Below the pieces are notes generated by a model. It worked only from the letters and a program-made list of their open reading frames with translations. It searched no databases and had not been told where the DNA came from. The translations under genes were made by a program, and so were the position numbers. Below, piece by piece: positions 6,722 to 56,966 of a stretch of DNA of 64,000 nt (the stretch's first letter is position 1; each line of letters begins with the position of its first letter). Source of the stretch: Verrucomicrobiota bacterium (lineage in GTDB: Bacteria; Verrucomicrobiota; Verrucomicrobiia; Chthoniobacterales; SZAS-18); the NCBI GenBank assembly GCA_025353105.1, contig JANXRG010000068.1, positions 1-64,000 on the forward strand. The letters run 5' to 3'.

Positions 6722-6743
6722 ACGAGGGATAGGGCAACCTTTG

Positions 6744-7178: not shown

Positions 7179-7279
7179 GTGGAACGCGACCTCCGGGCGC
7201 GTTGGCAAAGGGTTTGGCAGCCCGCGGGCGCGGGCTGCATTTGTTTTTGACAACGTGCCCGGAGGTAGCGTTCCACCTA
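7176..7279. repeat. complete palindromic (MITE-like) element between convergent operons
   Basis: A 104-bp element with terminal inverted repeats of about 31 bp matching at 28 positions. Both ends read TAGGTGGAACGC inward, followed by (G/T)ACCTCCGGGC. The centre holds a second, perfect hairpin (7217-7238). The outermost TAG of the left end is the stop codon of the RidA-like gene, and the outermost TAG of the right end is the stop codon of the kynurenine monooxygenase gene. Terminal TA dinucleotides would fit a TA target duplication, as made by IS630/Tc1-type transposases. Copies A and B share one arm. Confidence 0.85.
7217..7248 (+). terminator. hairpin with T-rich tail, probable terminator of the kynA operon
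   Basis: A perfect 9-bp GC-rich stem (GCAGCCCGC / GCGGGCTGC, loop GGGC) is followed on the plus strand by CATTTGTTTTT, which is the form of a rho-independent terminator. It lies 39 bases after the RidA-like stop, inside the palindromic element. The wider palindrome could also stop the opposing transcript from the kmo side. Confidence 0.65.
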
Positions 7280-8653: not shown

Positions 8654-9939
8654 TGTCCTCCGAAAACCTCGTTCAGCACGCGCACGAGGCGCCAGACATC
8701 GTGGAACGAGTTATAAAGCGGCGCGGGCGCGACGCGAATGACGTCGGGCTCGCGGAAGTCGCAGAAGACGCCGCGCTCGTGCAGCAGTCGTGACGTCGCG
8801 GGCGTGGCGCCATCGATCTCGAGCGACAGTTGCGCGCCCCGATCCGCGGATTTCGGCGGGGTGAGAATCCGAAGGCGTTCGTGGATCGCCGACGCTTTCA
8901 GTGACTGCTCCAGATAGTTCGTGAGTGCGATCGATTTGGCTCGAAGCGCCGGCATCGTGGCGCGCTCAAAGATCTCAAGCGACACGCGTAGCGGCGCCAG
9001 CGCGAGCACGGGCGGATTGCTGAGCTGCCACGCGTCCGCGCTGTCGACCGGCACAAACTCCGGTCCCATCTTGAAGCGCGTGGCCGGGTCGTTGCCCCAC
9101 CAGCCGGCGAACCGTGGGAGGGTCCGGTCGCGGAGATGTCGCTCGTGCACGAACGCACCGGCGACGGCGCCGGGGCCGGCGTTGAGATATTTGTACGAGC
9201 ACCACGCGGCAAAATCGCAATCCCAATCGTGGAGTTGCAGATTCACGTTCCCCGCCGCGTGAGCTAGATCCCAGCCGACGACGATTCCGTGGTCGCGGGC
9301 GAAGCGCGTGATCGCGGGCAGGTCGAAATACTGGCCCGTGAGATAATTCACGCCGCCCAGCAGGAGCAGCGCGATCGACGATGACTGAAGCTCGATGGCC
9401 TCCAGGATGTCGTCCGTGCGCAGGGTGGACTCACCGTCACGCGGCTTGAGTCGAATCAAGCCGTGGTCCCGGTCAAACCCGGCGCGCCCGTGATGAAAAT
9501 CGAGCTGGCTCTGCACCGCGTACGAATCGGACGGGAATGCGGAATCCTCGATCACGATCTGGTAGCGCTCACGCGTCGGCCGATAGAACGAGACCATGAG
9601 CAGATGCAGATTGGTGGTCAGCGAGTTCATCGCCACGACCTCGCGCGGAAGTCCGCCGACCACGCGCGCAAGCGTCGCGCGAACCTCCTCATGATAGGGG
9701 AGCCAGGGATGCCGGGCCGCGACGTGTCCCTCCACGCCAAACTCGGCCCAATCCTCGAGTTCCTGGTCGACCGCGGCGCGTGTGGCCTTCGGCTGCAGGC
9801 CGAGCGAATTGCCGACGAAATAGAGCGGTTTGCCGGCCGGCGCCCGCGGGAAGTGGAAGAGATCCCGGAAGGATCGCAGCGAATCCTCCGCATCACAGCG
9901 GTGCGCGAAGTCCTCTTTGGAGGCGTCTGAAGTGTTCAT
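8650..9939 (-). CDS. kynU: kynureninase
   Basis: A 429-residue PLP enzyme that cleaves 3-hydroxykynurenine (and kynurenine) to 3-hydroxyanthranilate (or anthranilate) plus alanine. The PLP site is evident in GWDLAHAAGNVNLQLHDWD and the Schiff-base lysine in CSYKYLNAGPG. YFVGNSLGLQPKAT at the N-terminus is a kynureninase hallmark. Length fits the family (about 415-430). It overlaps the decarboxylase gene upstream and the monooxygenase downstream by 4 bases each, so all three are very likely made from one message. Confidence 0.96.
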   Translation of the reverse strand: MNTSDASKEDFAHRCDAEDSLRSFRDLFHFPRAPAGKPLYFVGNSLGLQPKATRAAVDQELEDWAEFGVEGHVAARHPWLPYHEEVRATLARVVGGLPREVVAMNSLTTNLHLLMVSFYRPTRERYQIVIEDSAFPSDSYAVQSQLDFHHGRAGFDRDHGLIRLKPRDGESTLRTDDILEAIELQSSSIALLLLGGVNYLTGQYFDLPAITRFARDHGIVVGWDLAHAAGNVNLQLHDWDCDFAAWCSYKYLNAGPGAVAGAFVHERHLRDRTLPRFAGWWGNDPATRFKMGPEFVPVDSADAWQLSNPPVLALAPLRVSLEIFERATMPALRAKSIALTNYLEQSLKASAIHERLRILTPPKSADRGAQLSLEIDGATPATSRLLHERGVFCDFREPDVIRVAPAPLYNSFHDVWRLVRVLNEVFGGQ

Positions 9940-11042
9940 GAATGGAGTCCCGTCGGGCGGGGCGGGAGATTTAAAAATTGCGCGGCTGATCCCGACAGCA
10001 GGTCAGTCACGCATTCGCTGGCCAGCTCGGCCTTCATTTGTTCGATCAACGCCCCGGGCCGGTCTTCTCCGAGCGGAAACGGATAGTCGGAGCCGAGCGC
10101 GATGCGGTTGGAGCCAAACTGGCGGACCAGAAGTCGCAGCGCGTCGATGTCGTGCACGAGCGAGTCCACGAAAAATTTCGCCGGCCGGTCGGGCCCGGCA
10201 AGATAATCGCGCGGGTCCCGGGATTCGGCCGGGAAAAGATCGGGCCGGCAGGCGCGGCCGTGCGCGATGCGGCCAAGCGTTCCGGGAAACGAACCGCCAC
10301 CGTGCGAGAAGCAGACGCGCAGGCGCGGCAGGCGGTCGAGCACGCCGCCGAATATCACCGAGCAGATAGCCACGCAGGTTTCGGCGGGCATGCCGACGAG
10401 CCACGGCATCCAGTAGCGGGCCAGACGATTCATCGTCCGGGCCGATTCGCCGGCCCGGGCATGCAAACCGAATTGCAGCATGTCCCAAGGATGAACGAAG
10501 ACGCATGCGCCGATCGATTCGGCCGCGGTGAGAATTTCGATGACGCCGGGATCGTCGAGATTCACGCCATTGATGTTGGTGCCGATTTGGACGCCCGGAA
10601 ATCCCAGTTCCTTCACGCAGCGCTCGAGTTCCCGAATCGCCCGCGAGGTGTCCTGCATCGGGATGGTGCCGAGGCCCACGAAATGTTCCGGGTGCGATGC
10701 GCTCACGCTGGCGATGTGATCGTTGAGGAGCCGGGCGAGGTCGTACGCGTCCGCCGCTTTGGCCCAATAGGAAAACATGACGGGCACCGTGGAGAGTGCC
10801 TGCAGGTTGACGCCCGTGGTCTGCATTTCGGCCAATCGGACGGCGGGATTCCACAGGTTCTCCCGCACGTCGCGGAAACTGGTGCGGGAACCATCCGCTT
10901 CGGAACGCTGCAGGCGCGCGCAACCGGCCGTGCAACCGGGTGCATCGTGCGCGAGTTCAATCCAGCCGGCGTAACCACTCCGTTGCGTCCAATCCGGCCA
11001 ATGCTGCGGAAGGATGTGAGTGTGAAGATCGATCTTCAGCAC
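9936..11042 (-). CDS. nbaD: 2-amino-3-carboxymuconate-6-semialdehyde decarboxylase (ACMSD)
   Basis: A 368-residue amidohydrolase-fold zinc enzyme. It decarboxylates ACMS to 2-aminomuconate semialdehyde, drawing flux away from quinolinate and NAD. The N-terminal metal motif is IDLHTHILPQHW (His7, His9). A FVHPWDM histidine, FSHGGGSFPGTLGR and a GSDYPFPLGE aspartate complete the site. The start is uncertain: the GTG at 11042 places the HxH motif where the family has it, while a GTG at 11096 would add 18 residues that read like an 'accaagaacgaatcac' intergenic repeat. Neither has a clear ribosome site. It overlaps kynU by 4 bases. Confidence 0.93.
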   Translation of the reverse strand: MLKIDLHTHILPQHWPDWTQRSGYAGWIELAHDAPGCTAGCARLQRSEADGSRTSFRDVRENLWNPAVRLAEMQTTGVNLQALSTVPVMFSYWAKAADAYDLARLLNDHIASVSASHPEHFVGLGTIPMQDTSRAIRELERCVKELGFPGVQIGTNINGVNLDDPGVIEILTAAESIGACVFVHPWDMLQFGLHARAGESARTMNRLARYWMPWLVGMPAETCVAICSVIFGGVLDRLPRLRVCFSHGGGSFPGTLGRIAHGRACRPDLFPAESRDPRDYLAGPDRPAKFFVDSLVHDIDALRLLVRQFGSNRIALGSDYPFPLGEDRPGALIEQMKAELASECVTDLLSGSAAQFLNLPPRPTGLHS

Positions 11043-11114
11043 AGGCGGGACGGAGTGATCGGTGATTCGTTCTTGGTTATTAGTGGGAACCAACACGAAT
11101 GACGCCCCCTGCCC

Positions 11115-11828
11115 TCATCGAAGGCGCGCCGAACCCTTCTTCAACTTCGCGCGCGATCCTCCCGCCTTCGACTTTCGACCTTCGACTTTCGACTTCGTCT
11201 GCCTGGCTCGTTTCTTCGAGTTTCGAATTTCGAGTTTCGAGTCTCCGATCGGGGCGGCCCTCACCCCACCCTTGGCCAGACGAATCGCACCGGCCCGTGC
11301 CACCACGGTCCCGCACTTCCGGCACGTGCGGCGTTCGATCGGTCCACTCCAGAAGTCCTCCATGACGATTTTGAGGTCCTGGTCGATTTTGTTGAGCACC
11401 CATTGCGCTTCGTACACGGGCGCATCGCACGCCGGGCAGTACCAGCGCAGCGCGTCTTTCTGCGGGTTGCCGTGGGGGTCGACCCCGCGGGGAAACTCCA
11501 TGATCAGTCCGACGGTGCCGGCCGGGCGCTGCGGGCGATGCGGGAGCCAGCGCGGCAGCAGAAACAGTTCGCCTTCTTTGATGATGATTTCGTGCGGCTC
11601 GCCACCGTCGAGCGGCCGAACCCGCACGGCGATGTCTCCCTTGAGCTGGAAGAAGAGTTCCTCCGTCGGGTTGACGTGAAAATCGTTGCGCGTGTTCGGA
11701 CCGCCGGACACGAAGACGATCACGTCCGAGGATCCGTTGAACAGCTGCTTGTTGCTTACCGGGGGCTTGAGATCGGGTGCGTTTTCCTTGATCCACTTGG
11801 CGAGGTTGAGTTTGGCGGGCAGGTTCAT
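11115..11828 (-). CDS. nbaC: 3-hydroxyanthranilate 3,4-dioxygenase with repeat-encoded C-terminal tail
   Basis: A 237-residue cupin that opens 3-hydroxyanthranilate to ACMS. Expected iron ligands are His51, Glu57 and His97; substrate arginines fit Arg47 and Arg101, and Glu111 is also present. The bacterial rubredoxin-like zinc site is intact (CPAC at 131-134, CRKC at 169-172). Known bacterial enzymes end about 10 residues later, at roughly 175-185. Here about 50 extra, strongly basic residues follow (KLEIRNSKKRARQTKSK...). They are encoded by tandem 'ttcgagtttcgaa' and 'ttcgactttcgac' repeats, which suggests a lost stop codon read through into an intergenic repeat. The start is the ATG at 11828, with GGAG about 10 bases upstream. 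Confidence 0.93.
   Translation of the reverse strand: MNLPAKLNLAKWIKENAPDLKPPVSNKQLFNGSSDVIVFVSGGPNTRNDFHVNPTEELFFQLKGDIAVRVRPLDGGEPHEIIIKEGELFLLPRWLPHRPQRPAGTVGLIMEFPRGVDPHGNPQKDALRWYCPACDAPVYEAQWVLNKIDQDLKIVMEDFWSGPIERRTCRKCGTVVARAGAIRLAKGGVRAAPIGDSKLEIRNSKKRARQTKSKVEGRKSKAGGSRAKLKKGSARLR
11165..11242. repeat. two blocks of short tandem 'ttcgactt/ttcgagtt' repeats inside the dioxygenase tail
   Basis: Block 1 (11165-11196) is built from ttcgactt units and block 2 (11214-11242) from ttcgagtt/ttcgaatt units. Related tracts lie outside genes at 15094-15118 and 44314-44343. On the minus strand they read as 'actcgaaactcgaa', and in the dioxygenase frame they give SKLEIRNSK- and SKVEGRKSK-like peptides. 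Confidence 0.8.
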
Positions 11829-11876
11829 GGGGGCGATCTCCGGGGAGGGAAGAGGTGAGGGCAAGCGTGTTCCTTT

Positions 11877-11890
11877 GTCGAACGTTTGTC
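11877..11890. promoter_or_regulatory. imperfect palindrome upstream of the dioxygenase gene, possible operator
   Basis: The 14-base site gtcgaacgtttgtc has the symmetric core aacgtt flanked by partly matching arms (pattern GNCNAACGTTNGNC). It lies about 50 bases upstream of the dioxygenase ATG in a 117-base gap that starts a new transcription unit or follows the E1 gene. No regulator gene is adjacent, so this is only a candidate. Confidence 0.2.
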
Positions 11891-11945
11891 CGCCTAAAAA
11901 CGACAAAATTGTGCGCTGGTGGCGCGCTCGCCCACGTTCCCGCGA

Positions 11946-14177
11946 TTATCCACAGAGCTTCCGCGCGGCTTCGACGATCTGCGCTTCGGAAATCAAGACG
12001 AGATTCGCGGCGGCGGCGAGTGGCACGTAGGAGTCTACCGCGCGAACCGACCCCATCGGCCCGATGAATCCCGTCTCGGCCAGCGCGGCAATGGCGGCAT
12101 CGGCGATCCCGCCACCGGTCGCACGGCATTCATCCGCAACCAGCACGCGACCGCATTCCCAGGCGTGGTGCCGAATTGCTTCCACCGGCAGCGGGTTGAG
12201 CCAGCGCACATCGAGCACGCGCGCCTGGATCCCCTGCTCTTTCAAGCGTCGCGCTGCGCGTAGCGACAGCCGCAGACCGTTGGCATAGCTCACGATCAAC
12301 AGATCCTGCGCCTCCTCGTGATAGAGGCCGACTTCGCCGGGCAGAAGGATGCGCCCGGGCGACGGGTAATCGAAAAGCCATTGGTTATCGCCGTCCGCAT
12401 GCAGGTCACGTTCGTGATAAAGCGCGATCGGTTCGAGAAAAATGGCCACTCGTCCACACGCCCGCGCCGTGGCGACGAGGCCACGCAACATCATGGCGGC
12501 TTCATCGCCGCGCGACGGTACCGCCAGCAGCAAACCCGGAATATCCCGCAGCGCGCCGATCGAATTGTCGTTGTGAAAATGTCCGCCGAAACCTTTCTGG
12601 TACGCGAGACCCTGCACGCGAACGACCATCGGATTGGCGAACTGGCCCGTGGAAAAAAACTGCAACGAACAAGCCTCGCCGCGCAACTGGTCGAGGGCGT
12701 TGTGCACGTAAGCGAGGTATTGAATTTCCGGGATCGGTAGCAGTCCGGCCAGGCCCGCGCCCTGCGCCACGCCCAGAATCGTGGTCTCGTCGAGCAGCGT
12801 ATCGAAGCAGCGGTGCGGCCCGAACTTCGCCTGCAGGCCGGCCGTGACGTTGTAAACGCCTCCCTTCTTTCCGACATCCTCGCCGAACACGATAATCTCC
12901 GGGAAGCGCAGCATCTCATCCGCGAGCGCGGAATTGATGTGCGCCCCCAGCGTGCGCTTGGTCGTCGCCGCGAATTTCTCCGGCAGCGTGTCGCCAAAGA
13001 ATCCGTTCCGCGCCACGCCTTCCGCCTGGATCTCGGTCGTCGCGCGAATGATGGTTTCGTTGTACGGCGCGAGCGGACGGATGATCTCTTCCACGCTGGT
13101 CAGCTTCGGGCTGTGTGCGGCCACCTCGGCGCACGCCGCGTCGACGCGCCGTTGAACTTCGAGCATCATTCCCTGCATTTCCGCGGGGCTCGCGGCCCCG
13201 CTCTCGACGAGGAAGCGCGCATTGATGAGCAACGGGTCACGCGCCTCAATCGCTTCAATCTCCGCGACGCTGCGATACGACTCCTCGACATCCGTACCCG
13301 CGTGCCCCCACAACCGCACGGTGTGCAGATGCAAGAACACCGGTGTGCGGTTGGAACGGCAATGCCGGATCGCCTCCTCCGCCACCGCCCAGATTTCATC
13401 CATCGCACCGGCGGCCTCGAAGTACGCGAGATGGGTCTGGCGGCTGAACGAATCATGGATCCAATTGCGCGGCGTCTCGACCGAGATGCCGATGCCATTG
13501 TCCTCGCACAAAAACACGATCGGCGCCGTGCCGCCGCGTCGCACGGCATACCGCGCGGAATTGATTCCCGCCAGCGCGGCCGCGTGATTGGCAGAGGCAT
13601 CGCCGAAGGAGCACAACACAATCGAATCCGCGCTCAGATGGTTCGCGATGTCGAGGCGATGCGCGCGACGCAAGGCGAACGCCATGCCGGCCGCCTTCGG
13701 CAGATGCGAGGCGATCGTGCTGGTTTGAGGCGGCACCCACATCGGCCAACTGCCCCAGACCTTGTGGCGCCCGTGTGAAATGGGATCGTCGGCGGACGCG
13801 CAGAAGGAGCGCACGCTGTCGAGAATCGGATTCGCGCCGGGCAGCTGGCGCGAGCGCGCCATCATCAACCCGCCGGAGCGATAATGCAGGAAGCACGGAT
13901 CATCGAGCCGAAGCAACGCACCGACCACCGCGTTCTGCTCATGCCCGGCGCTGGAGATCGTATAGAAGGACTGATTCGTCTTGCGCAGCTCTCGCGCCGC
14001 AACATCGAGCAAGCGACTAGTGACCTGATCCTCGAAAAGTTCGCGCGCCTGCTGAACGGTCAACGAAGAGTCGGGAGCCAGTGCAGCGTCCGCGGACAAG
14101 CCCGCGGCGGTTCCCGGCGCGAAGGCAAGGTAGGCGGCTAGATTCTCCTGGACGATTTCGACGCGGGTTTTGGCCAT
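11946..14177 (-). CDS. fused alpha-beta 2-oxoacid dehydrogenase E1 component
   Basis: A 743-residue thiamine-diphosphate enzyme joining E1-alpha (about 1-350) and E1-beta (about 400-743). The alpha half has the ThDP motif GDASANHAAALAGIN...CEDNGIGIS. The beta half has VFGEDVGKKGGVYNVTAGL, LDETTILGVAQGAGLAGLLPIPEIQ and a transketolase C-terminal domain. Such fusions act as the E1 of branched-chain 2-oxoacid or pyruvate-type complexes in several phyla. No E2 or E3 gene lies in this window, so the complex must be completed from elsewhere. It sits 117 bases upstream of the dioxygenase gene on the same strand. An activity on 2-oxo acids from tryptophan breakdown is possible but unproven. Confidence 0.88.
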   Translation of the reverse strand: MAKTRVEIVQENLAAYLAFAPGTAAGLSADAALAPDSSLTVQQARELFEDQVTSRLLDVAARELRKTNQSFYTISSAGHEQNAVVGALLRLDDPCFLHYRSGGLMMARSRQLPGANPILDSVRSFCASADDPISHGRHKVWGSWPMWVPPQTSTIASHLPKAAGMAFALRRAHRLDIANHLSADSIVLCSFGDASANHAAALAGINSARYAVRRGGTAPIVFLCEDNGIGISVETPRNWIHDSFSRQTHLAYFEAAGAMDEIWAVAEEAIRHCRSNRTPVFLHLHTVRLWGHAGTDVEESYRSVAEIEAIEARDPLLINARFLVESGAASPAEMQGMMLEVQRRVDAACAEVAAHSPKLTSVEEIIRPLAPYNETIIRATTEIQAEGVARNGFFGDTLPEKFAATTKRTLGAHINSALADEMLRFPEIIVFGEDVGKKGGVYNVTAGLQAKFGPHRCFDTLLDETTILGVAQGAGLAGLLPIPEIQYLAYVHNALDQLRGEACSLQFFSTGQFANPMVVRVQGLAYQKGFGGHFHNDNSIGALRDIPGLLLAVPSRGDEAAMMLRGLVATARACGRVAIFLEPIALYHERDLHADGDNQWLFDYPSPGRILLPGEVGLYHEEAQDLLIVSYANGLRLSLRAARRLKEQGIQARVLDVRWLNPLPVEAIRHHAWECGRVLVADECRATGGGIADAAIAALAETGFIGPMGSVRAVDSYVPLAAAANLVLISEAQIVEAARKLCG

Positions 14178-14293
14178 GAAATGAGCGGGGTCGAATCGAA
14201 TTCAGCAGGCGGCGGTTAAGAAGAGCGACCCAGATTAACCGGATTTCCCAAATTAACCAAAGGACGGGCTCGGAATCATTGTGCTCCGCTGCT

Positions 14294-15040
14294 TCACCGT
14301 CCACCCGTTACGTCGATGAAACTGCCGGTCACGTACGAGGCTTCGTCGGAAAGCAGCCACAGGATCGCGGCGGCGACTTCCCCGGGTTGGCCGCCGCGCT
14401 TCATCGGGACGAGATCTTTCACGCGCTCCACGCGGTCCGGCTCGCCGCCGAGCGCGTGGATATCAGTGTAGATGAATCCCGCGCGCACTCCATTGACGCG
14501 GATGCCCTCGGTCGCGACCTCCTTGGCCAAACCGATCGTCATCGTGTCGAGCGCGCCCTTCGTCGCAGCGTAGTCGATGTACTCGCCCGGCGAACCAACG
14601 CGCGCGGCGCCCGACGACACATTCACGATCGCGCCGCCGCCGCCGCCGTAGAGCGAGGACATCCGCCGAACCGCTTCACGCGCACATAGAAACGCGCCCG
14701 TGACATTCGTCGCGAAAACCCGCTGCAATCGCGCCGCGTCCATGGCGTCGAGCCGTGACTGCATCTCGAGAATCCCGGCATTGTTCACCAACGCGGTCAG
14801 GGGGCCCAACTCACGATCCACGATTTCAAAAATGGCCGCGACGTCGGCCTCGCGGGACACGTCGCCCGGCACCACGTAGGCGTAGCCGCCGGCTTTCATG
14901 ATGTCGGTCGCGACCAACTCGGCCGCCCCGCGATCTCGGACGTAGTTCACCGCGACGGCGTAGCCCTGCGCCCCCGCGAGCCGCGCCGTGGCCGCACCGA
15001 TGCCGCGGCTGCCGCCCGTGATGAGCATCACTTTCTTCAT
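14294..15040 (-). CDS. short-chain dehydrogenase/reductase (FabG-like)
   Basis: A 248-residue classical SDR. The N-terminus MKKVMLITGGSRGIGAATAR is the TGxxxGIG cofactor motif, with NNAG for the central strand, a catalytic Ser in VNVSSGAARVG, and YAATK supplying Tyr and Lys. The C-terminus SYVTGSFIDVTGGR is typical. The residues after the second strand suggest NADP preference. The substrate is unknown. The ATG at 15040 was chosen because the upstream frame passes through an intergenic repeat tract. It lies 116 bases upstream of the E1 gene on the same strand. Confidence 0.92.
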   Translation of the reverse strand: MKKVMLITGGSRGIGAATARLAGAQGYAVAVNYVRDRGAAELVATDIMKAGGYAYVVPGDVSREADVAAIFEIVDRELGPLTALVNNAGILEMQSRLDAMDAARLQRVFATNVTGAFLCAREAVRRMSSLYGGGGGAIVNVSSGAARVGSPGEYIDYAATKGALDTMTIGLAKEVATEGIRVNGVRAGFIYTDIHALGGEPDRVERVKDLVPMKRGGQPGEVAAAILWLLSDEASYVTGSFIDVTGGR

Positions 15041-15093
15041 CACGCGAGTCTGGGCGCGATCCAGGCGCGCGACAACGGGAAGATTGGCGATCA

Positions 15094-15118
15094 AAAACTC
15101 GGAGATCGAAACTCGAAG
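15094..15118. repeat. 'actcgg/atcgaaactcgaag' repeat tract
   Basis: A short tract of the same family as the one in the dioxygenase tail, in the 120-base gap between the SDR and permease genes. Confidence 0.55.
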
Positions 15119-15160
15119 AAACGGCAGAAAGAGCCAAGGACAAAGCTTCAAGACCGACCG

Positions 15161-16927
15161 TCAGCATTTTTGCGTGACGTCTTTAATTTCCTCCTTTTTC
15201 CTTCCTCCTTGTTCTTTTGCCTCACCCTGCTCGATCACCGACTGCGCCCGTTGTTTTCGCACTCGCCAGAGCTGGAGGATCAGCCCGGCGACCACGAACC
15301 CGTTGACCGTCTGCCAGAACCAGAACGCCTGCGGAATGGTCTTGCCAACGTCCAGCGGGATCGTCACGGGAATCAGGGTCTGGGCCGCAAAGAAAGGCGC
15401 GGCAAACGGTGAAACGCCGGCAAGCCAGACCGACGCGTTGAGAAAGGGATTCTGCGCGGCGGCGAGGACGGCCCCGACCATGGCGGGCACGATTCCCACG
15501 AAGATGCCGAAGAGAAACGGCCACTTTCCGCCGCGCGCCTCGAGCATCGCCTGGAAGCCGAGACCGGAACCGAGGAGCACCAGCGCGAACGTCCACCCCC
15601 CGTACGCGGGGAATTTGATGCCGGCGAACCACGACGACTCGACGAGCCCACGCGCGAACAACGTCCACCCCAGCGCGCCAATCACGGCCATGACCGCGAC
15701 AAACCAGAACGATCCGGCGGCATCGGAAAAGCGGGGCAGATGCGCCCAGCCAAGCTTGCGCATGCGCCGCACGCCGCGGAGCTGTTCGTCCTCGGTCGCC
15801 GTGATGATCATCGTGAGGACGGCGATGAGGCAAAGCGTGACGAGTCCGTAGAGCCCGATCATCCCGACGGCTTCCTCGATCTGCGGCTTCCAGTCCGCCC
15901 CCACGGAAACGCGCAGGCGGCGGCCAATCTCGCGCGACGGAAAGAGCAACCCCGGCTCGATCAGCGGCAGAGCATTTCCGAGCAGAAGAATTTGCGTCCA
16001 GGCGAAGAGTCCGACCGCCCAAATTTTCCCGAGGAGATGCGATTCCGCCCGGCGCCAGCGGCGCCAGAGCATGACGATGAACGTGAGGATCAGCGCGCCC
16101 TGCGTGAACAACGTGAAGACCCACTCGGAGAAGTGGAGGCCGAAGAAGCGGACCTCGGTGGCGAGCGGCACGCCGCCCTGCGTCATCGCCCGGGCGGCGC
16201 GGAGGGCGCGGCCCGCCGTTTCCGGCATCAAGTTGGCGAAGGATTCCTGGAAAACCGGTGAGAGCGTAAAGTATTTGAAGAACACGAGGCCAAACCGCGA
16301 GACCTGCGGGATGACGGTGTAGAGCAGGAAGACGATGCCGATGGACAGCAGGAACGCCCACCGGCGGTTCTTCACGACCGTGCCGGCGACGAGGCCCGTG
16401 AGATGATAGAGCACGGCGGAGCTGAGAAAAACGACGTAGAGCGGAAGCCATGTCGTAGGGGGCACCTGGCCGCTCCACAACGCCCAGATCGTGTAGGGCA
16501 GGGTGGCCAGAAACATGACGTACTCGCGCACCGGCAGACCGAAGAGATAGCCGAGCACCTTGGCCAGCGGCGTCATCGGGGTGAGACGCTGATAATCGAG
16601 CACGCCTTCATCGGCCTCGCCGGTCATGCCGCCGGCCACCTGTCCGGTGCCGAGGACAAAGAGAATGACCGACTGCAGCACGAGCAGCGGGACCAGCGGC
16701 GCGCGCTCCGCATCGGCCAACGGCATGTCCGCGCGATAAACGGCCATGGTACGGATGATGAAGAAAAGAAATGACGCCGGGACGAGCGTGAGGATGAGCC
16801 AGATGGTAAGATGCTTCGCCCGCAGCCGGGCGCGAACGTAGCGGCGGCAGATCGGGTTGGCCCAGATTTTCCAGGCGGGCAACGGATGCACCGCCTCGAC
16901 GGCGGACGAGGAAGCGGGCGCGATCAT
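15161..16927 (-). CDS. ABC-2 type transporter permease
   Basis: A 588-residue polytopic inner-membrane protein with about 12 hydrophobic segments (e.g. TIWLILTLVPASFLFFIIR, LLVLQSVILFVLGTGQVAGG) separated by charged loops. It starts with a soluble N-terminus and ends in a charged tail (QGGRKKEEIKD). Its ATG overlaps the stop of the upstream ATPase gene (TCAT at 16924-16927), so the two form one exporter. The fold agrees with ABC-2 export permeases; no substrate can be deduced. Confidence 0.85.
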   Translation of the reverse strand: MIAPASSSAVEAVHPLPAWKIWANPICRRYVRARLRAKHLTIWLILTLVPASFLFFIIRTMAVYRADMPLADAERAPLVPLLVLQSVILFVLGTGQVAGGMTGEADEGVLDYQRLTPMTPLAKVLGYLFGLPVREYVMFLATLPYTIWALWSGQVPPTTWLPLYVVFLSSAVLYHLTGLVAGTVVKNRRWAFLLSIGIVFLLYTVIPQVSRFGLVFFKYFTLSPVFQESFANLMPETAGRALRAARAMTQGGVPLATEVRFFGLHFSEWVFTLFTQGALILTFIVMLWRRWRRAESHLLGKIWAVGLFAWTQILLLGNALPLIEPGLLFPSREIGRRLRVSVGADWKPQIEEAVGMIGLYGLVTLCLIAVLTMIITATEDEQLRGVRRMRKLGWAHLPRFSDAAGSFWFVAVMAVIGALGWTLFARGLVESSWFAGIKFPAYGGWTFALVLLGSGLGFQAMLEARGGKWPFLFGIFVGIVPAMVGAVLAAAQNPFLNASVWLAGVSPFAAPFFAAQTLIPVTIPLDVGKTIPQAFWFWQTVNGFVVAGLILQLWRVRKQRAQSVIEQGEAKEQGGRKKEEIKDVTQKC

Positions 16928-17871
16928 GCTGGGGTGCTATTCTCCGCGACGTCGATGAGGATTTCCTCGAAGGTGGATTTCTGCTCCTCGAAAACCGTGA
17001 TCCGCAATTGTTGGGCGACGAGGCCGGCGAGCAGCGCGGCCTGCTCCTCGTGCGTGCCGGAAAATGAGAGCGAGAGGCGCTCGCCCGCCCGCTTGAGTTC
17101 GGTGACTCCGGACTGATTCCACAGCCAGTCTGCCGCTGCGTCGGCTCGCTCCAGTAGCGCCACGGTGAGCGTGCGTTCGGCCCGCCCGAGCAGGCGGCGG
17201 ACCTCGTCGACCGTTCCGGCGGCAAGGAGGTGACCGCGATTCATCACGCAGATCGACGAGCACATCTCCGCGAGCTCGCTGAGGATGTGCGAGCTGATGA
17301 AGACCGTGCTCCCGGCCTCGGCCAGGCGCCGGAGCGCGAGGCGAAGATTTCGCCGCGAAAGCGGATCCATGCCGCTGGCCGGTTCATCGAGGATCAACAC
17401 TTTCGGGGCGTGCAACAATGTCTTGGCGAGCACGAGCCGTTGCGTCTGCCCACGCGAGAGCGTCTTGCAAAAGACATTCCGGCGATCCGAAAGCGCGACT
17501 TCCTCGAGGCAGGTATCGACCCGCTCGCGCCGCGCCGCGGCCGAGCCGAGGCCGTGGGCATCGGCGAAGAGATCGAGAAATTCCCAGACTTTCAAATCGG
17601 AGGGAACCGGCGCGAGGTCGGGCATGTAGCCCATGATGCGCCTGGCCGCCTCGGGGTTCTCAAAGATGTCGATGCCCCCGAGCCGCACCTCGCCGTAGGT
17701 CGGGTCCATGAGCATCGCGAGAACGCGGAACGTGCTCGTCTTGCCGGCGCCATTCGGACCGACGAGACCGAACACCTCGCCCGCGGGAACGGAAAGCGTG
17801 ACATCGGAGACCGCGACGAAGTTTCCGTAATCGACGCGCAGATCGCGGATTTCGATGGCGGCGGCTGGCAT
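16924..17871 (-). CDS. ABC transporter ATP-binding protein
   Basis: A 315-residue cytoplasmic ATPase with Walker A GPNGAGKT, the Q-loop region, a degenerate signature TLSRGQTQRL (consensus LSGGQ), Walker B VLILDEPASGMDP and an H-loop in FISSHILSE. About 90 residues after the ATPase core form the C-terminal extension common in ABC-2 exporters (drug, gliding or Nos-type). It is the first gene of the pair with the permease at 15161-16927. The degenerate signature still has the essential Ser and Gly. Confidence 0.92.
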   Translation of the reverse strand: MPAAAIEIRDLRVDYGNFVAVSDVTLSVPAGEVFGLVGPNGAGKTSTFRVLAMLMDPTYGEVRLGGIDIFENPEAARRIMGYMPDLAPVPSDLKVWEFLDLFADAHGLGSAAARRERVDTCLEEVALSDRRNVFCKTLSRGQTQRLVLAKTLLHAPKVLILDEPASGMDPLSRRNLRLALRRLAEAGSTVFISSHILSELAEMCSSICVMNRGHLLAAGTVDEVRRLLGRAERTLTVALLERADAAADWLWNQSGVTELKRAGERLSLSFSGTHEEQAALLAGLVAQQLRITVFEEQKSTFEEILIDVAENSTPA

Positions 17872-50390: not shown

Positions 50391-50528
50391 GGCGTTGAAC
50401 TGGAAGACTCGTCTGGACTAACCTAGTGCGCCACGCCACCCTTTCGCGACAAAAACTTTGTGCCGCCTGCTCCCCGCCGCCCGGTCAACTCCTTTTTCCA
50501 CGCGTCGGCCTGCGCGCACCGTGGCTTG

Positions 50529-51722
50529 ATGATTGCGGTCGCGGTCGTCCTGGCAGCGTTTGCCTCGGGCCCGTCCGTGGCGCCCGCCCAAGCCCTGGGT
50601 CAGACTATCTACATCTCCGCACGGCCGGACGCGCCGGGCAGCGGTACGGCCTCCCGGCCGTTCGACGGCAGCGACGCGATCAAACTGGACGCGTTGCTAA
50701 AGTCGCTACCGGCCGGGACGCTGCGCGTGCAATTTGGCGCGGGAGTTTTTGTGACAACGGCAGGCGTTCCAGTCAAAGACGGCTGGACCGTGCAGGGCGA
50801 AGGTCCAAGTCGCACGACCATTCGTCTCGCCGACGGTGTGTTGTGTTCCGCGGACGAACAGGCGCTGCTCGTCGGAGGCTACGACTTCGGCGGCGCCGCG
50901 ACGCTGCTGAGTCATGCCTGCGTCCGTGATCTCAAGATTGATGGAAACCGTCGGGGTCAGCCCGCCTACGTCTCGCACCTTCCTGGTGCCATCAATGCGG
51001 TTGTCCTGTGGGCGCGCCAGTCGCGGATCGAAAACGTCCATGTGGTCAACACCTACTCCCATCCCGGCGAAGGTTTCCCGGTGCACATCTATTCCACCGG
51101 CGGCACGCTCGCGCAGCCCAACTGCGCCGACATCGAGAGCGTGCATGTCTATTTTCACGAGGGGTATGCGACGTCAATCAGCGTGTTCGACCAGACCGGA
51201 GGACGCATCACGGGCGGCATCCGGAATTGCGTCGTCAAGGGATATGGACGGCCGCCAAGTTCCGCCGGGTTCGGCGCCGGCGGGTGGGTCGACTTCGAGG
51301 TCTCGGACAACCGCGTCGAGGGCATGGCCTGCGGGGTGACGATCGACACGCACAACTATGCGCGCGTCCGTTTCCGCCGGAATACCTTCACCGGACTCTA
51401 CAAATTCGGATTCCTCGTCAACGGCAGCGGGCAGTACGATTCGCTCACGTTTCGCGGCAACCGGACGGAACTTGGCCCGAGCGATGGGGCTCATTACAAG
51501 TTTGACGTCGCCCGCCTGACCAATTTGCGCATCGAAAACAACATCCTGATCAGCCGGGGCCGCCCGCTCACGGTGGCACTGCACGGCGGCGGGAACGCCG
51601 ATGGGGTCATTCGTGCGAACCGAGTAAGCCCGGGACTGGATTTCGTAGTGCCGAAGTTGTCGCGCCTGGGCGTCGGGAAAAACCGGGTGCTCCCGCCGCC
51701 GGTGAACGGCTCAGGCCATTGA
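50529..51722 (+). CDS. exported right-handed beta-helix protein
   Basis: A 397-residue protein with a signal peptide (MIAVAVVLAAFASGPSVAPAQA) and pectate-lyase-like beta-helix coils, e.g. GWTVQGEGPSRTTIRLADG, ACVRDLKIDGNRRGQ, SRIENVHVVNTYSHPGEG, GGIRNCVVKGYG and RFRRNTFTGLYKFGF. Its role may be polysaccharide binding or cleavage, as for the protein at 21107, but it lacks that protein's C-terminal domain. The ATG at 50529 is chosen over a GTG at 50460. The last 12 bases overlap the end of the convergent VanZ gene. Confidence 0.82.
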   Translation: MIAVAVVLAAFASGPSVAPAQALGQTIYISARPDAPGSGTASRPFDGSDAIKLDALLKSLPAGTLRVQFGAGVFVTTAGVPVKDGWTVQGEGPSRTTIRLADGVLCSADEQALLVGGYDFGGAATLLSHACVRDLKIDGNRRGQPAYVSHLPGAINAVVLWARQSRIENVHVVNTYSHPGEGFPVHIYSTGGTLAQPNCADIESVHVYFHEGYATSISVFDQTGGRITGGIRNCVVKGYGRPPSSAGFGAGGWVDFEVSDNRVEGMACGVTIDTHNYARVRFRRNTFTGLYKFGFLVNGSGQYDSLTFRGNRTELGPSDGAHYKFDVARLTNLRIENNILISRGRPLTVALHGGGNADGVIRANRVSPGLDFVVPKLSRLGVGKNRVLPPPVNGSGH

Positions 51723-52184
51723 GAGAGCGCGCCGCGAGCGGTGCCATAGCCACAGCAGCGTCAGACCGATCGCGGCACCGCCCGCGTCGATCATCACATC
51801 CACCGGCGACCCGGTGCGCGACGGCACGAAGGCCTGGTGAACCTCGTCCAGCGCAGCGTAGAGCACGCAGATGCCGAACGGAAGCGCCGCGGCGCGCACC
51901 CGCCACGGCGTTCGCGTGGGCAGCACGGGCCGGCGCCACCATCCGCGCCACAGCAGCACCGCCAGAAACGCGTACTCGGTGAGATGCGCGCATTTCCGGA
52001 CGGTAAGAATCAGTCCGCGAATCGCCGCTTCGCCCAAGCCAAGCCATTGCAAAAGTGGGATCAGCAAGCGCGATTGATGCGACGCCGCCCCGAGGTCCGT
52101 CGAGCCGATGAAGATGATCGCCATCATGACCAAGGCCGGCCACCACCAGCGCAGGGCGGAGGGGGGCGTCAGCGGTTCGTTCAT
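51711..52184 (-). CDS. VanZ family membrane protein
   Basis: A 157-residue protein with four membrane segments. RKCAHLTEYAFLAVLLW and DEVHQAFVPSRTGSPVDVMIDAGGAAIG are the VanZ signatures (KxxHxxEY and DExHQxFxxxRxxxxxDxxxD). Despite the name, most VanZ-like proteins are not involved in glycopeptide resistance, and several act in envelope homeostasis. No operon partner. Confidence 0.92.
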   Translation of the reverse strand: MNEPLTPPSALRWWWPALVMMAIIFIGSTDLGAASHQSRLLIPLLQWLGLGEAAIRGLILTVRKCAHLTEYAFLAVLLWRGWWRRPVLPTRTPWRVRAAALPFGICVLYAALDEVHQAFVPSRTGSPVDVMIDAGGAAIGLTLLWLWHRSRRALSMA

Positions 52185-52314: not shown

Positions 52315-53130
52315 ATGCAACGCACCGCTCCCCTTCTCGCCGCGCTCGCCCTCGCGGCCGCCGTCCCGGCCTTCGCCGCCAACGAGCCGCCCAAGTCGCT
52401 CACGCCCGCGGAGATGAAGACCGACAATTACATCCTGCCGCCCCCCGAGGAAGTGTTCATGGCTCTCCGCGGCGTGAGCACGATCGATTTCGCCCGGCTC
52501 TGCGCCATGATCGCGAAGGATCCCTCCACCTCGAAATCAAGGTTCACGAGTGACGGCGCCAAAGCCGCGAATCTCGGCCTGCGCGTTGCCGACGCCTTTG
52601 TCGCCGTGCAGGCGAAGGACGCAAACGCGCTCCGGCGCGCCTCCGATGTGATCGAAATCCTCTCGCTCGAGCTCTCCGCCGACCTCTCGTTGAAGAACAA
52701 GATCGCCGTCGCCAACAAGCTCGCCGACGAGGGCAAATGGACCGAGTTGCGCACGATTCTCGAGTCGGTCCGGGTCGACGTGCTCGACGAGATGAAGGCC
52801 AACAAGGACAAGGATTCCGTCACGCTGGCGACCGTCGGCGGCTGGTTGCGCGGGCTGAACATCGCCACCACGGCCCTCTCCGAAAACTTCGAGCCGGACG
52901 CCACCAAGCTGCTGCGCCAGCCGCAACTCGTCGCCTACCTCAAGAAGCAGCTCGAGGGCCTGGGCCCGAAGTCGAAGGACCTGCCCTTCGTGAAGAAGAT
53001 CGTCAGCCAGATGGATGTGGTGGCCAAGCTCACCGATATCCCCGACGGCAGCACGTTGAGCAAGGATGACCTGAAGAAACTCAACCAGATCAGCAACGAG
53101 CTCGTCGCCGCCGTCGCCAACGCCGCGTGA
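52315..53130 (+). CDS. exported helical protein of unknown function
   Basis: A 271-residue protein with a signal peptide (MQRTAPLLAALALAAAVPAFA). The mature part is largely helical and charged, without a recognised domain (LRRASDVIEILSLELSADLSLKNKIAVANKLAD...). It is followed 32 bases later by another exported protein and then the TerB-ABCG fusion gene, so a role linked to that transporter is plausible but unproven. Confidence 0.72.
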   Translation: MQRTAPLLAALALAAAVPAFAANEPPKSLTPAEMKTDNYILPPPEEVFMALRGVSTIDFARLCAMIAKDPSTSKSRFTSDGAKAANLGLRVADAFVAVQAKDANALRRASDVIEILSLELSADLSLKNKIAVANKLADEGKWTELRTILESVRVDVLDEMKANKDKDSVTLATVGGWLRGLNIATTALSENFEPDATKLLRQPQLVAYLKKQLEGLGPKSKDLPFVKKIVSQMDVVAKLTDIPDGSTLSKDDLKKLNQISNELVAAVANAA

Positions 53131-53162
53131 TGCCCGGCGCGACCCCATTTCCCCCGAAATAT

Positions 53163-53612
53163 ATGAAGCGCTTGATTCTCTCCGCTCTCGCCGCCGGCGC
53201 GTTGCTCGCCGCCCCCGTCGCGCACCTGCTCGCCAGCCAGCTCGGCGCCAAGGTCACCGCCCTCGCCATCATGAAGGCGCTCGCCGACAGCGGCTGGACG
53301 ATTCGCGACGGCTCCATCGACGAGCTCAATCAGGGCGAATCAAAGGTGTATCCCGTCACGCTCTATTACGGCAACACCTACAAGATCGTCGCCGCGGGCG
53401 ATGAGGATGCCGCCGACGTGGACATCGGCGTGTACTACGGGCCCGAGGGCAAATTCCTGATCAAGGACGACGACAACAGCAATGTCGCCGTCGTCACGGT
53501 CACGCCGGGCTACACCGATCAGTTCTACATCAAGGTGGTAATGGCGAAGACGAAGACCGGCGGCACGGCCCATTTCGTGGTGCAATACGCCTCCAAGACC
53601 AAGAACCGGTAA
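53163..53612 (+). CDS. small exported protein of unknown function
   Basis: A 149-residue protein with a signal peptide (MKRLILSALAAGALLAAPVAHLLA). The mature part contains a beta-rich stretch (VYPVTLYYGNTYKIVAAGDEDAADVDIGVYYG; ending TAHFVVQYASKTKNR) suggesting a compact beta-sandwich. The ATG at 53163 was chosen. Second of two exported proteins preceding the transporter gene. Confidence 0.72.
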   Translation: MKRLILSALAAGALLAAPVAHLLASQLGAKVTALAIMKALADSGWTIRDGSIDELNQGESKVYPVTLYYGNTYKIVAAGDEDAADVDIGVYYGPEGKFLIKDDDNSNVAVVTVTPGYTDQFYIKVVMAKTKTGGTAHFVVQYASKTKNR

Positions 53613-53678
53613 CGCCCACCGCTCGCCGGCGCGAGCACGCGCGCCCCCGCGCGGACGGGCCAGCCTGGAGGCAAATCC

Positions 53679-56600
53679 GTGAACATGGCCTCCCTCTTTC
53701 GCCGGCATCCCAGGTCGGCCACCGCCGACCGGGCCCGCCAGGATCGACTGCTCTCGGGGGTCCTGCAGATTTTCGCGCTCATCGCGAACGCGGACGGTTC
53801 GGTGGGCGACGACGAGATGCGCTACGTCGAATCGTATCTCTTGTCGCTCAATCCCGGCGACACCCCGCGGCTGCTCGAGGAGTTCAAACGTAACGTCGCG
53901 CAGAATCTGCCGATCGACTCGACCGTTGCGGCACTCGAGGGCGCGTTCAGCTACGAGGAAAAACTCTTCGTGCTTGGAAAATCCTACGAGTTGCTCGACG
54001 TGCATCGCATCTCGGATGCCGAGCTGAAGGCCGCGCGATCCGTCGCGTGGAGCCTGGGCATCCACTCGCTCGACGCGAATCTGATCGAGGATCATTTCAT
54101 CCACGAGGTCCCTGCCGCCGCGCCCCCGCCGGGCACGCCGGTGCACATCCACGTCCTGCGGCTTTCCGACAACCGCAATGCCCCCGACGAACTCGCGCTA
54201 CCGCTGCCGGGCCTGCGCGCCGACATCTACGCGCTGGCCGGCGGATACTACATCCGCCAGCGCGACGACCAGCAGGCCATCACGATCGGCGGGCAGCGCC
54301 TGCGGCGGAACTTTCTGACCAAGATTCGGCGGCTCGACGCGTTGTGCATTGGCGGCGTCATGATCCGGCAGGGGGACCTGCCCTTCTACCTGCACCGGGT
54401 CGCCAAGAGCGGGCAGATGCAATCGCTCTTCGTCTCCTCCTCCACCAACGGCACGTTCACGGTCACCAGCGAACGCACCGATCAACCCACGTTGTTGCAG
54501 CTCGACCTCGAAGGCATCCTCATCATCGCCTCGACGCCCGATCCCGCCGCCGTGCAGATCAATCACCAGCCGCTTGCGCGCCCGCGCCGCGTGGTCCTCG
54601 GCGACGCTTTCGAAATCCGCAGCGTGCCGCTCGATCTCCGAAAGCTGCTCTTCAATCATCTCACCGACGAATTTTCGTTCGAGGGCGATCCGGATGGCGC
54701 CTGCATCGTGGCGTGTTCCATTTCGAACAAGCCGGACTCCGACATCCACGTGCCCGACCGTCAGGGCAAACGCTGGCGCGCCGAGATTCGCCGAGACCCA
54801 GACGGCGGATTTCGTTTCTTCGCGGGCGATTGTCCGCATCGCCTGCTCCGGCACGGTCATCCCTTTTCGGAAAACCAGACGCTGCCCAACGGCGAGCGGC
54901 TCACCCTCGCCGGCTTCGGTCTCGAACTCGACGGGCCCGTCGTCCATCGCTTCCCGCCCGGCGTGCAGAATCTCGCCGCGGATCGGCTGACGTATGTCTT
55001 CCCGGATCGATCGGTCGGCATCGACGACGTCGCGTTTGAAGCCGAGCGTGGTGATCTCATCTGCATCCTCGGTCCCAGCGGCTGCGGCAAATCCACGCTG
55101 CTCAGTATCCTCACCGGCGCGACCGAACCAACCCGCGGCAGCGTGCGGGTCGACGGCACGGAGCTCCACCGCAACGCGCGGCTCCAGTCGCGCATCGGCT
55201 TCGTGCCGCAGGACGATTTACTCTTCGAGAATCTCACCGTTGGCGAGAACCTCGAATACTCCGCCCGCCTGCGCATGCCCGCGGAAACGCCTGACCACGT
55301 CGAGCGCATGGTGCGCAAGTCGCTCCGGGAGGTCGGCCTGCGCGAACGCCGCCACGTGCGCGCGGGCGGACCGCTCGACAAAACGCTCAGTGGGGGCGAG
55401 CGCAAGCGGCTCAACATCGGACTCGAGTTGCTCGGCGATTACGAGATCCTGTTGCTCGACGAACCCACCTCGGGACTTTCCTCCGGCGACGCGCTCAAGG
55501 TCGTCGAGGTGCTCAAGAATCGCGCGCTCGACGGCGGCATCATTTTCGCCGTCGCGCATCAGCCCAGCGCCAAGCTGCTGGACCTGTTCGATAAAGTCCT
55601 GCTGCTCGACAAGGGCGGAAAGGTCGCGTTCTTCGGCGACGTGGGCGCCGCTTTTCGCTATTTCCACGAGCACGAGCACGGCGAAATCCTCACGCCCATG
55701 GGCGAGACCGCGGCGCTGGACGCGGATTTTCTTTTCCAGGCGCTCGAGCGGTCGAGCCTGCGCATCGACGGCACGCCGGACCAGACGCGGCGTCATCCGC
55801 CGTCGTACTGGCAGGAGCGCTTCGCGAAATACCGCGACACCAATGTGCTCGGCCGGCTCTATCACGCGCGGCCGCCGCAATGGACCGATGACGGCGGGCC
55901 TCCCGTGCCGAAGATCGCCGCGCGCATCGGGCAGTTCATCACGTTGCTCCGCCGCGAATCGCTCAACAAGTGGCGCAACGGATTCAACCTCCTCGTCAAC
56001 CTCGGCTCGGCCATCGGCCTCGCGCTCATTGTCACCCTCGCCTGCCGCGAGAGCGCCGATGGAAATTACGAGCTCGCCCGCAACCGCGCGTTTGGAAATT
56101 TTCTTTTCCTCACCACGGTCGTCGCGCTGTTTCTGTCGCTCTCGGCGAGCGTGACCGAGATCGTAAAGGATCGCGCCATCCGCCTGCGCGAACGCCTGCT
56201 CGGCATCCCGCACGTGCTTTACTTGCTGAGCAAATTGCTGCCGCTGCTCGCGATCTTTCTCGTCCAGATCGCGTTGTACGAGTTCACCGGCTTCACCGTG
56301 CTCGGCGTGCGCGAGTTGTGGCTGCCGTATTGGGCGGTGCTGGGCGTGACGGGATTCGCCGGCCTGGCGATCGGCTTGTTTTTTTCCGCCTTGCCTTCGA
56401 TGACCGACAAGGCCGCGTCGGCGCTGATCCCGATTTTGCTCGTTCCTCAGATCATCCTCAGCGGCGCCCAACCGTTCCCGTTTGAGCGGATGGCGCACAT
56501 CCATTGGCCCGGGAGGCGCCCGGCCGACGCGAGGGAGGCCGCGTCCTCGCCGCCGTGGGCCGCGGAATTGATGCCGTCGCGCTGGAGTTACGAGGCACTC

Positions 56601-56966
56601 GTGTGTCTGCAGCGCGATCGCGGCTTCGAGCAGCAATACCGCGACGCGCTGACGCTGGTGACAAAATCGCGGCGCGACCCGGGTTCGATCAACGAGACGG
56701 TGCTCGAGTTGGCGCGCACCGCAAAAGCCTCGGGCGAGGGCGACGCCGCCAACTCAACCAGGCGAATGACGCTGTTCCACAATGAATTTTCCAAGGAGGG
56801 CTCGCCGAGCCGCGACGTCGTGCTGCGCTGGACTTCCGCGAACGTCAGTCGCGTTTTTTGGAATGCGAACGTGCTCTTTGCGATGGGATTCGGATGGCTG
56901 GTGCTGACCTGGCTCGTGTTGAAATTTGGCCGGCCGATCCGGAGCTGGCTGGGACCGAAGAAGTAG
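53679..56966 (+). CDS. TerB-like/FHA-like/ABCG fusion transporter
   Basis: A 1095-residue protein. Residues about 25-135 look like a TerB-type helical domain (LQIFALIANADGSVGDDEM). Residues about 150-430 hold FHA-like beta-sandwich segments. Residues about 435-660 are an ABCG ATPase with Walker A GPSGCGKST (about 465), signature LSGGERKRLNI (about 570) and Walker B ILLLDEPTSGLSS (about 590). Several membrane helices follow (about 770-1090). The layout matches WHITE/ABCG half-transporters with regulatory N-terminal domains. The GTG at 53679 has GGAGG seven bases before it and is preferred to the ATG at 53685. Confidence 0.85.
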   Translation: MNMASLFRRHPRSATADRARQDRLLSGVLQIFALIANADGSVGDDEMRYVESYLLSLNPGDTPRLLEEFKRNVAQNLPIDSTVAALEGAFSYEEKLFVLGKSYELLDVHRISDAELKAARSVAWSLGIHSLDANLIEDHFIHEVPAAAPPPGTPVHIHVLRLSDNRNAPDELALPLPGLRADIYALAGGYYIRQRDDQQAITIGGQRLRRNFLTKIRRLDALCIGGVMIRQGDLPFYLHRVAKSGQMQSLFVSSSTNGTFTVTSERTDQPTLLQLDLEGILIIASTPDPAAVQINHQPLARPRRVVLGDAFEIRSVPLDLRKLLFNHLTDEFSFEGDPDGACIVACSISNKPDSDIHVPDRQGKRWRAEIRRDPDGGFRFFAGDCPHRLLRHGHPFSENQTLPNGERLTLAGFGLELDGPVVHRFPPGVQNLAADRLTYVFPDRSVGIDDVAFEAERGDLICILGPSGCGKSTLLSILTGATEPTRGSVRVDGTELHRNARLQSRIGFVPQDDLLFENLTVGENLEYSARLRMPAETPDHVERMVRKSLREVGLRERRHVRAGGPLDKTLSGGERKRLNIGLELLGDYEILLLDEPTSGLSSGDALKVVEVLKNRALDGGIIFAVAHQPSAKLLDLFDKVLLLDKGGKVAFFGDVGAAFRYFHEHEHGEILTPMGETAALDADFLFQALERSSLRIDGTPDQTRRHPPSYWQERFAKYRDTNVLGRLYHARPPQWTDDGGPPVPKIAARIGQFITLLRRESLNKWRNGFNLLVNLGSAIGLALIVTLACRESADGNYELARNRAFGNFLFLTTVVALFLSLSASVTEIVKDRAIRLRERLLGIPHVLYLLSKLLPLLAIFLVQIALYEFTGFTVLGVRELWLPYWAVLGVTGFAGLAIGLFFSALPSMTDKAASALIPILLVPQIILSGAQPFPFERMAHIHWPGRRPADAREAASSPPWAAELMPSRWSYEALVCLQRDRGFEQQYRDALTLVTKSRRDPGSINETVLELARTAKASGEGDAANSTRRMTLFHNEFSKEGSPSRDVVLRWTSANVSRVFWNANVLFAMGFGWLVLTWLVLKFGRPIRSWLGPKK

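Follow-up and report, generated by a model that had tools for sequence, protein, structure and literature searches.

Bacterial ABCG-type exporters are poorly understood and, to our knowledge, dedicated extracytoplasmic partners of these exporters are rare. The nearest characterised system to the locus described here is Rv1747/PknF of Mycobacterium tuberculosis, an FHA-ABCG exporter with a serine/threonine (Ser/Thr) kinase which, in the available parts of the publications, is implicated in the export of cell-wall components (PMC3908365, PMC5549992). The locus in question consists of three genes, here termed G1, G2 and G3, and lies in a stretch of 64,000 nucleotides (the window) on contig C107 of the 3.72-Mb draft genome of a Verrucomicrobiota bacterium (121 contigs; own genome, G000). 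Judging by those same parts of the publications, Rv1747 and G3 are alike in that both carry, in one chain, a putatively regulatory cytoplasmic head before the ABCG ATPase and the ABC-2 membrane domain, and the two systems differ in the following respects: (i) G3 has a TerB domain and its FHA-like part lacks the phosphothreonine motif; (ii) no kinase adjoins G3; and (iii) two exported partner genes precede it. No kinase-like open reading frame (ORF) occurs in the 17-kb stretch around the three genes. The locus lacks two defining features of an Rv1747-type system, namely the FHA motif and the adjoining kinase; actually, a different locus of the same genome, on contig C116, with a true FHA-ABCG flanked by kinases, resembles Rv1747/PknF more than the window does.

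It is quite possible, if still tentative, that the three genes form a conserved ABCG exporter cassette with two dedicated extracytoplasmic partners (G1 and G2) and a cytoplasmic regulatory head (the N-terminal part of G3). The evidence points to a pair that acts together with the exporter at the outer face of the membrane, and not to one that is its cargo. Literature searches, which covered open-licence papers in PubMed Central (PMC), returned no description of such a unit, in keeping with the earlier note, made from the sequence of this DNA alone, which had suggested that it might be undescribed. Likewise, the available part of a paper on signature proteins of the Planctomycetes, Verrucomicrobia and Chlamydiae (PVC) contains nothing on the genes G1, G2 and G3 (PMC3444138).

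Conservation of the gene order

A transporter with the same domain order as G3 occurs in Chthoniobacterales-like and Verrucomicrobiales-like genomes. A six-row profile of the G3 head was searched against 117 relatives and against 288 genomes across the phylum: the head was found in 109 of the relatives, nearly always in one copy per genome and in an ORF of near 1200 amino acids (aa), and strongly in 40 of the 288 genomes. This head-bearing, mostly single-copy ABCG is a core transporter (own copy on contig C48), and the G3 of the window is a second, divergent copy; in the three core copies compared with G3, identity was 17-19% over the head and 26-28% over the whole protein. G1 and the head share a phyletic profile (the same 40 of the 288 genomes, with 12 further weak matches to the head only). 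As this shared profile follows clade boundaries, it was given no weight as a sign of linkage.

In the window's order (213 genomes), the window-type transporters of G002, G000 and G004 reached 1464, 1417 and 1324 bits, respectively, against 554 bits at most for the core copies. In the order of genome G365 (386 genomes), the outliers were G365 (1213 bits), G620 (1119 bits) and G692 (676 bits), while G745 (551 bits) lies within the core score range and was chosen for its two matches and long frame. Most cassettes were found by ABCG similarity, that of G365 was first seen through G1, and the genomes of family f4 were noticed for their second ABCG copies together with G1 on the same contigs.

G1, G2 and the ABCG gene follow each other in the same order and on the same strand in G000, G004, G365, G620, G692 and G745, and G1 is followed by the ABCG gene, without G2, in G076 and G064. 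In G025 the region is divided between two contigs; past its G1 there is a matching fragment, and the whole looks like a further G1-ABCG arrangement without G2. In total, in eight of nine resolvable genomes, from three families and two orders, a window-type ABCG is the next gene after G1 (or G1-G2); the exception is G002, where it lies away from the pair. In contrast, G1 stands beside the core ABCG in none of 23 distinct loci (fetched regions with at least 1.5 kb upstream). The order is kept between families and between the two orders at only 30-40% identity of the whole transporter. The conservation of the three-gene order, which the earlier note had proposed as a check, was borne out in this way for the window-type transporters.

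Both trees group broadly in the same manner. In the ABCG tree (31 rows, from the ATPase onwards), ten window-type proteins form one group, with a suggestive support of 93/89, apart from the core transporters (18 rows, 99/99). In the G1 tree (54 rows, after four long-branch rows had been dropped: G345 C43, G376 C74, G328 C118 and G179 C7), the G1 proteins linked to an ABCG and those linked to a kinase and FHA-ABCG form a clade of 15 rows (98/96). The adjacency, the ABCG group and the G1 clade all support the reading of the locus as an exporter cassette.

As a separate observation, the window-type ABCG of G745 (L366, 2107-6117) has a C-terminal RyR domain (PF02026, E 2.8e-12) that was not seen in two others scanned alongside.

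Organization of the locus and architecture of G3

The three genes were confirmed as ORFs in close order on one strand, as first described (Table 1), and chance ORFs can be excluded because homologues exist in the same genus (72-73% identity to G1 and G2, and 65% to G3). The intergenic gaps measure 32 nt (G1-G2) and 66 nt (G2-G3). A scan found no terminator-like site on the + strand between the three genes; in the same scan no sigma-70-like promoter was found, a result that is uninformative for the phylum Verrucomicrobiota. A divergent gene of the VanZ family (51711-52184) lies upstream of G1 and, beside the cassette, positions 50460-51722 of the + strand encode a protein with a weak match to a right-handed beta-helix (24.3 bits, just below the cut-off).

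Table 1. Coordinates of the three genes and of the parts of their products in the window.
Feature	Position	Strand	Description
G1	52315-53130	+	271 aa; exported all-helical protein (predicted), Verrucomicrobiota family
G1 signal peptide	52315-52377	+	By inspection; hydrophobic stretch ending AFA
G2	53163-53612	+	149 aa; signal peptide, helix and eight-stranded beta-sandwich (predicted)
G3	53679-56966	+	1095 aa, GTG start; single-chain TerB / FHA-like / ABCG-type exporter
TerB domain of G3	53769-54062	+	aa 31-128; Pfam PF05099, 27.8 bits (gathering cut-off 24.4)
FHA-like stretch of G3	54717-54938	+	Approximately aa 347-420; weak PDB profile matches, without S-x-x-H
ABC ATPase domain of G3	55023-55472	+	aa 449-598; Pfam PF00005 (ABC_tran), E 1.7e-31
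ABC-2 membrane domain of G3	55932-56468	+	aa 752-930; Pfam PF01061 (ABC2_membrane), E 9.6e-17
Loop of G3 before last membrane helix	56481-56852	+	aa 935-1058, about 124 residues; by hydropathy; candidate docking surface for G1/G2

G3 is a single-chain transporter with TerB ahead of its ATPase, as had been claimed: the TerB match exceeds its Pfam cut-off, and both transporter domains are clear. At a loose threshold, TerB was matched in all six members of alignment A4. G3 shares this N-terminal domain with the TerB tellurite-resistance family, with the difference that in G3 TerB is a domain of a transporter and not a stand-alone protein. Envelope-stress sensing through TerB, as raised in the earlier note, is a putative role.

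The FHA-like part that the earlier note placed beside TerB is plausible, but only weakly supported at the sequence level. FHA domains are among the top, non-significant PDB sequence matches to this stretch (GarA, E 1; KIF1B, E 0.027; KIF13B, E 1.7). Against it, Pfam FHA (PF00498) gave no match in the window's G3, and comparing the G3 head by hhalign with six FHA domains from relatives gave no significant match (probability 3.4). FHA domains bind phosphothreonine through an S-x-x-H motif, which is absent from the G3 family alignment.

The remainder of the chain has the order expected of ABCG/ABC-2 exporters, that is, an ATPase with Walker A (465), signature (570), Walker B (591) and H-loop (627) motifs ahead of the ABC-2 membrane domain. 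Hydropathy places the hydrophobic segments between aa 767 and 934, and at 1059-1084. By hydropathy only, this amounts to six membrane helices, the last of them preceded by a large loop, as in an ABCG half-transporter; by analogy with the usual ABCG topology, the loop is predicted to lie outside the cytoplasm. Where a PDB structure aligns with the ATPase and the membrane part in a single stretch, it is that of an ABCG protein. G3 does not belong to the White-type pigment precursor permeases, with 235.5 bits against a curated cut-off of 736 for NCBIfam TIGR00955. Nor does the locus have the features of type I secretion: G3 has an ABC-2 fold, and both of its neighbours come from families with signal-like N-termini.

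The G1-G2 pair

Neither the window's G1 nor its G2 matches any Pfam family. The earlier claim that both lack known domains is upheld for G1 and has to be amended for G2, for which a PPC-, collagen-binding- or GOLD-like fold is predicted.

The AlphaFold2 (AF2) model of G1 (mean predicted local distance difference test, pLDDT, 86) is all helical and has no convincing PDB match (best Foldseek E 0.6). Three candidate relationships were set aside: (i) the VIA matches are generic four-helix bundles with Z up to 9.1, a range that, according to the tool, is common for helical models, although G1 may yet have a known fold; (ii) the match to BREX BrxE (NCBIfam E 0.024, 14.6 bits against a cut-off of 80) was treated as chance; and (iii) the salt-tolerance protein StlA, mentioned in connection with Akkermansia, is set apart by its membrane prediction and its distribution, a judgement that relies on its description. 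In the available part of its publication, StlA is a predicted four-helix membrane protein that had no homologue at the time (PMC3861447).

The AF2 model of G2 (pLDDT 88) consists of an N-terminal helix and an eight-stranded beta-sandwich. Its structural matches are to PPC (pre-peptidase C-terminal), collagen-binding, PliG and GOLD domains (Z 8.8-10.9), including 3afg, the C-terminal part of Tk-SP (Z 10.9, root-mean-square deviation (rmsd) 2.0, 98 residues aligned), the collagen-binding domain of ColH (Z 9.5) and 5sv5 (Z 8.8, rmsd 2.5, 91 aligned). In view of these matches to the model, G2 is predicted to be a PPC-like beta-sandwich, although Pfam PPC (PF04151) gives no match for the window's G2 and scores its best homologue below the cut-off (22.3 against 25.9 bits, E 2.5e-4). 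Whereas PPC domains are appended to proteases, G2 is exported as a protein in its own right and forms a pair with G1. The toxin names among its fold matches reflect the shared beta-sandwich and were not taken as an indication of function.

G1 was found in 114 of the 117 relatives and G2, by a single-sequence search, in 77. Nearly every genome of the window's order has G1, commonly in two to four copies and in up to six (the number found in the own genome), and G1 is also present in a second order. The two smallest relatives, G012 and G021 (0.9 Mb), have neither G1 nor the core TerB/FHA-like ABCG, which fits their reduced genomes. A second G1 paralogue, 47% identical and without G2, lies 17 kb downstream, beyond the window (C107:70260-71051; L072, 10240-11055, +), and has a counterpart on contig C39 of genome G001.

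Of 146 distinct G1 copies searched with profiles, 115 have G2 as the next gene downstream; the same holds for all 65 distinct copies from named records, these records having been chosen by their G1 patterns. The junction is a 4-nt overlap, as in translationally coupled pairs, in 71 of the 103 cases measured. By a crude test applied over the families, a signal-like N-terminus is present in 110 of 132 distinct G1 copies and in 114 of 116 G2 copies. G1-G2 is a tight pair across the order, with several paralogous copies per genome, mostly without an adjoining G3. Frequent separation of the genes, named at the outset as a ground for rejecting the unit, is consequently seen for the pair and not for the window-type transporter subfamily. 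The pairing of G1 with G2, their Sec-like signals and the absence of + strand terminators between the three genes support the exporter cassette.

Genes adjoining the paralogous G1 copies

A census of the 146 distinct G1 copies, extending 2.6 kb downstream, differentiated the following neighbours: (i) an ABC-2 ATPase, mostly of one family and followed in the inspected loci by its membrane gene (55 copies); (ii) a gene that we take to be ACT-like (20 copies); (iii) PhoH with 7TM-HD and often YbeY (17 copies); (iv) a Ser/Thr kinase (5 copies); and (v) an ABCG (3 copies in that set). None of these types was found in 35 copies, and 11 had less than 2.6 kb of downstream sequence. The G1-G2 copies directly before PhoH, 7TM-HD and, often, YbeY occur in two orders (L074, 7056-11548; L231, L235, L239, L240 and others). 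Apart from these, a lineage of G1 without G2 (L238, L222, L223 and L233) is divergent from genes for a family 2 glycosyltransferase and an L,D-transpeptidase (YkuD), and is also present in genomes that appear to be Akkermansia-like (f15/g40).

These neighbours bear on the proposal of the earlier note that G1 and G2 are cargo secreted by G3 in a dedicated secretion unit. The gene order, the export signals of both proteins and the exporter fold of G3 are all compatible with it. Nevertheless, the proposal is very unlikely to be correct and was not sustained: since G1 and G2 both carry Sec-like signal peptides, they would need no ABC exporter to leave the cytoplasm. Moreover, G3 has an ABC-2/ABCG fold and not that of type I secretion, and the cassette includes no membrane-fusion or TolC-like partner. 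The pair occurs throughout the order, most copies have no adjoining ABCG and the usual neighbours are those listed above; finally, G001 has the pair and no second ABCG, and the window-type ABCG of G002 lies apart from its pair.

The kinases point to the main rival explanation, in which G1-G2 would be an extracytoplasmic sensor module that feeds varied membrane systems and that signals to or switches G3, without handling its substrate. Five copies of the census are followed by a Ser/Thr kinase gene, and Pfam confirmed kinases near G1 in seven loci (L075, L230, L232, L236, L295, L297 and L227), two of which also contain an FHA-ABCG. In L075 (own genome, C116, 5495-19001), two kinase genes lie downstream of G1-G2, the first for a Ser/Thr kinase, with a true FHA-ABCG (Pfam FHA, E 8.7e-9) between them; in L227 (G289, family f15, other order; 5480-17001), a Sel1-repeat kinase, G1, a small protein, an FHA-ABCG and a kinase succeed each other, without G2. 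Furthermore, the kinase-linked G1 proteins of G000 C116 and G328 C17 belong to the 15-row clade of the ABCG-linked ones. This explanation is somewhat unlikely in our view, given that no sensory motif is recognisable, the housekeeping neighbours (PhoH/YbeY, ACT) fit it poorly and two similar loci (L310 and L315) have no kinase in the stretch read. The exporter cassette is in turn supported by the position of G1 beside other ABC-2-type exporters (the 55 copies above) and beside FHA-ABCG with kinases (L075, L227).

Proposed mechanism and its weighing

According to the exporter-cassette reading, G3 would be an inner-membrane ABCG-type (ABC-2) half-transporter, presumably acting as a homodimer and regulated by its cytoplasmic TerB and FHA-like head. 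G1 and G2, which may be co-transcribed with G3, would be made together, exported by Sec and assembled into an extracytoplasmic complex that partners G3, in the simplest form by docking on its long last extracytoplasmic loop. There, the complex would receive or gate a substrate moving outwards. By analogy with FHA-ABCG exporters, this substrate may be a lipid, a glycolipid or another hydrophobic envelope component.

A number of points weigh against the cassette. The contrast between eight of nine and none of 23 loci (Fisher p 9e-7) overstates the case because the genomes are related and, hence, the eight are not independent. Support for the window-type ABCG group is below the star threshold of the program and, before extra genomes were added, a tree with the G365 ABCG among the core copies could not be rejected (p-AU 0.089); similarly, the G1 tree does not resolve a clade of ABCG-linked G1 proteins only (31/14). 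The cassettes of family f4 are without G2. The TerB/FHA-like head was recognised only in the f1 members and not in the f15 and f4 transporters, and therefore what stays constant in the cassette is G1 with the ABCG body, in most cases along with G2. In G002, the ABCG and the pair are both present and unlinked, and G001 keeps the pair (C56) with the core copy as its sole head-bearing ABCG. Most G1-G2 pairs adjoin genes without an ABCG, and many without any transporter (PhoH/HD/YbeY, ACT). Finally, an interaction of the proteins and co-expression of their genes are both putative.

Some of these points would equally suit the absence of any functional link, in which case G1-G2 would be a general, multi-copy pair of envelope proteins (e.g., an envelope-stabilising or wall-associated complex) and the ABCG would have been placed beside one copy and co-inherited with it. 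The near-universal presence of G1 in the order, its many copies and its varied neighbours agree with this possibility, and so does G001, whose pair adjoins a gene similar, on visual inspection, to the VanZ gene of the window, so that the place looks orthologous and has no ABCG. We nonetheless consider it unlikely, since the gene order is kept across families and two orders despite the divergence of the transporter, the groupings on both trees broadly match, and the core paralogue has no G1 in any of its 23 loci read.

Significance

G1 and G2 are unnamed families, and their members in the window have no Pfam family. It is possible, if rather doubtful, that the role of G1-G2 is a general one, as an extracytoplasmic two-protein module that in Chthoniobacterales and Verrucomicrobiales has repeatedly been coupled to TerB/FHA-like ABCG transporters, to FHA-ABCG with Ser/Thr kinases and to two-component ABC-2 exporters; in that event, the ABCG exporter of the window would represent a class not described before, in which dedicated exported proteins serve as partner subunits and the control exerted from the cytoplasm is of a phospho- or stress type. 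In any case, with the pair found again and again beside ABC-2 exporters and kinases, two so far unexplained genes now have a partner hypothesis that can be tested. As both families are near-universal in the window's order, assigning a function to G1 and G2 would provide annotations for several genes in each genome, both among abundant soil bacteria and among their relatives from the gut.

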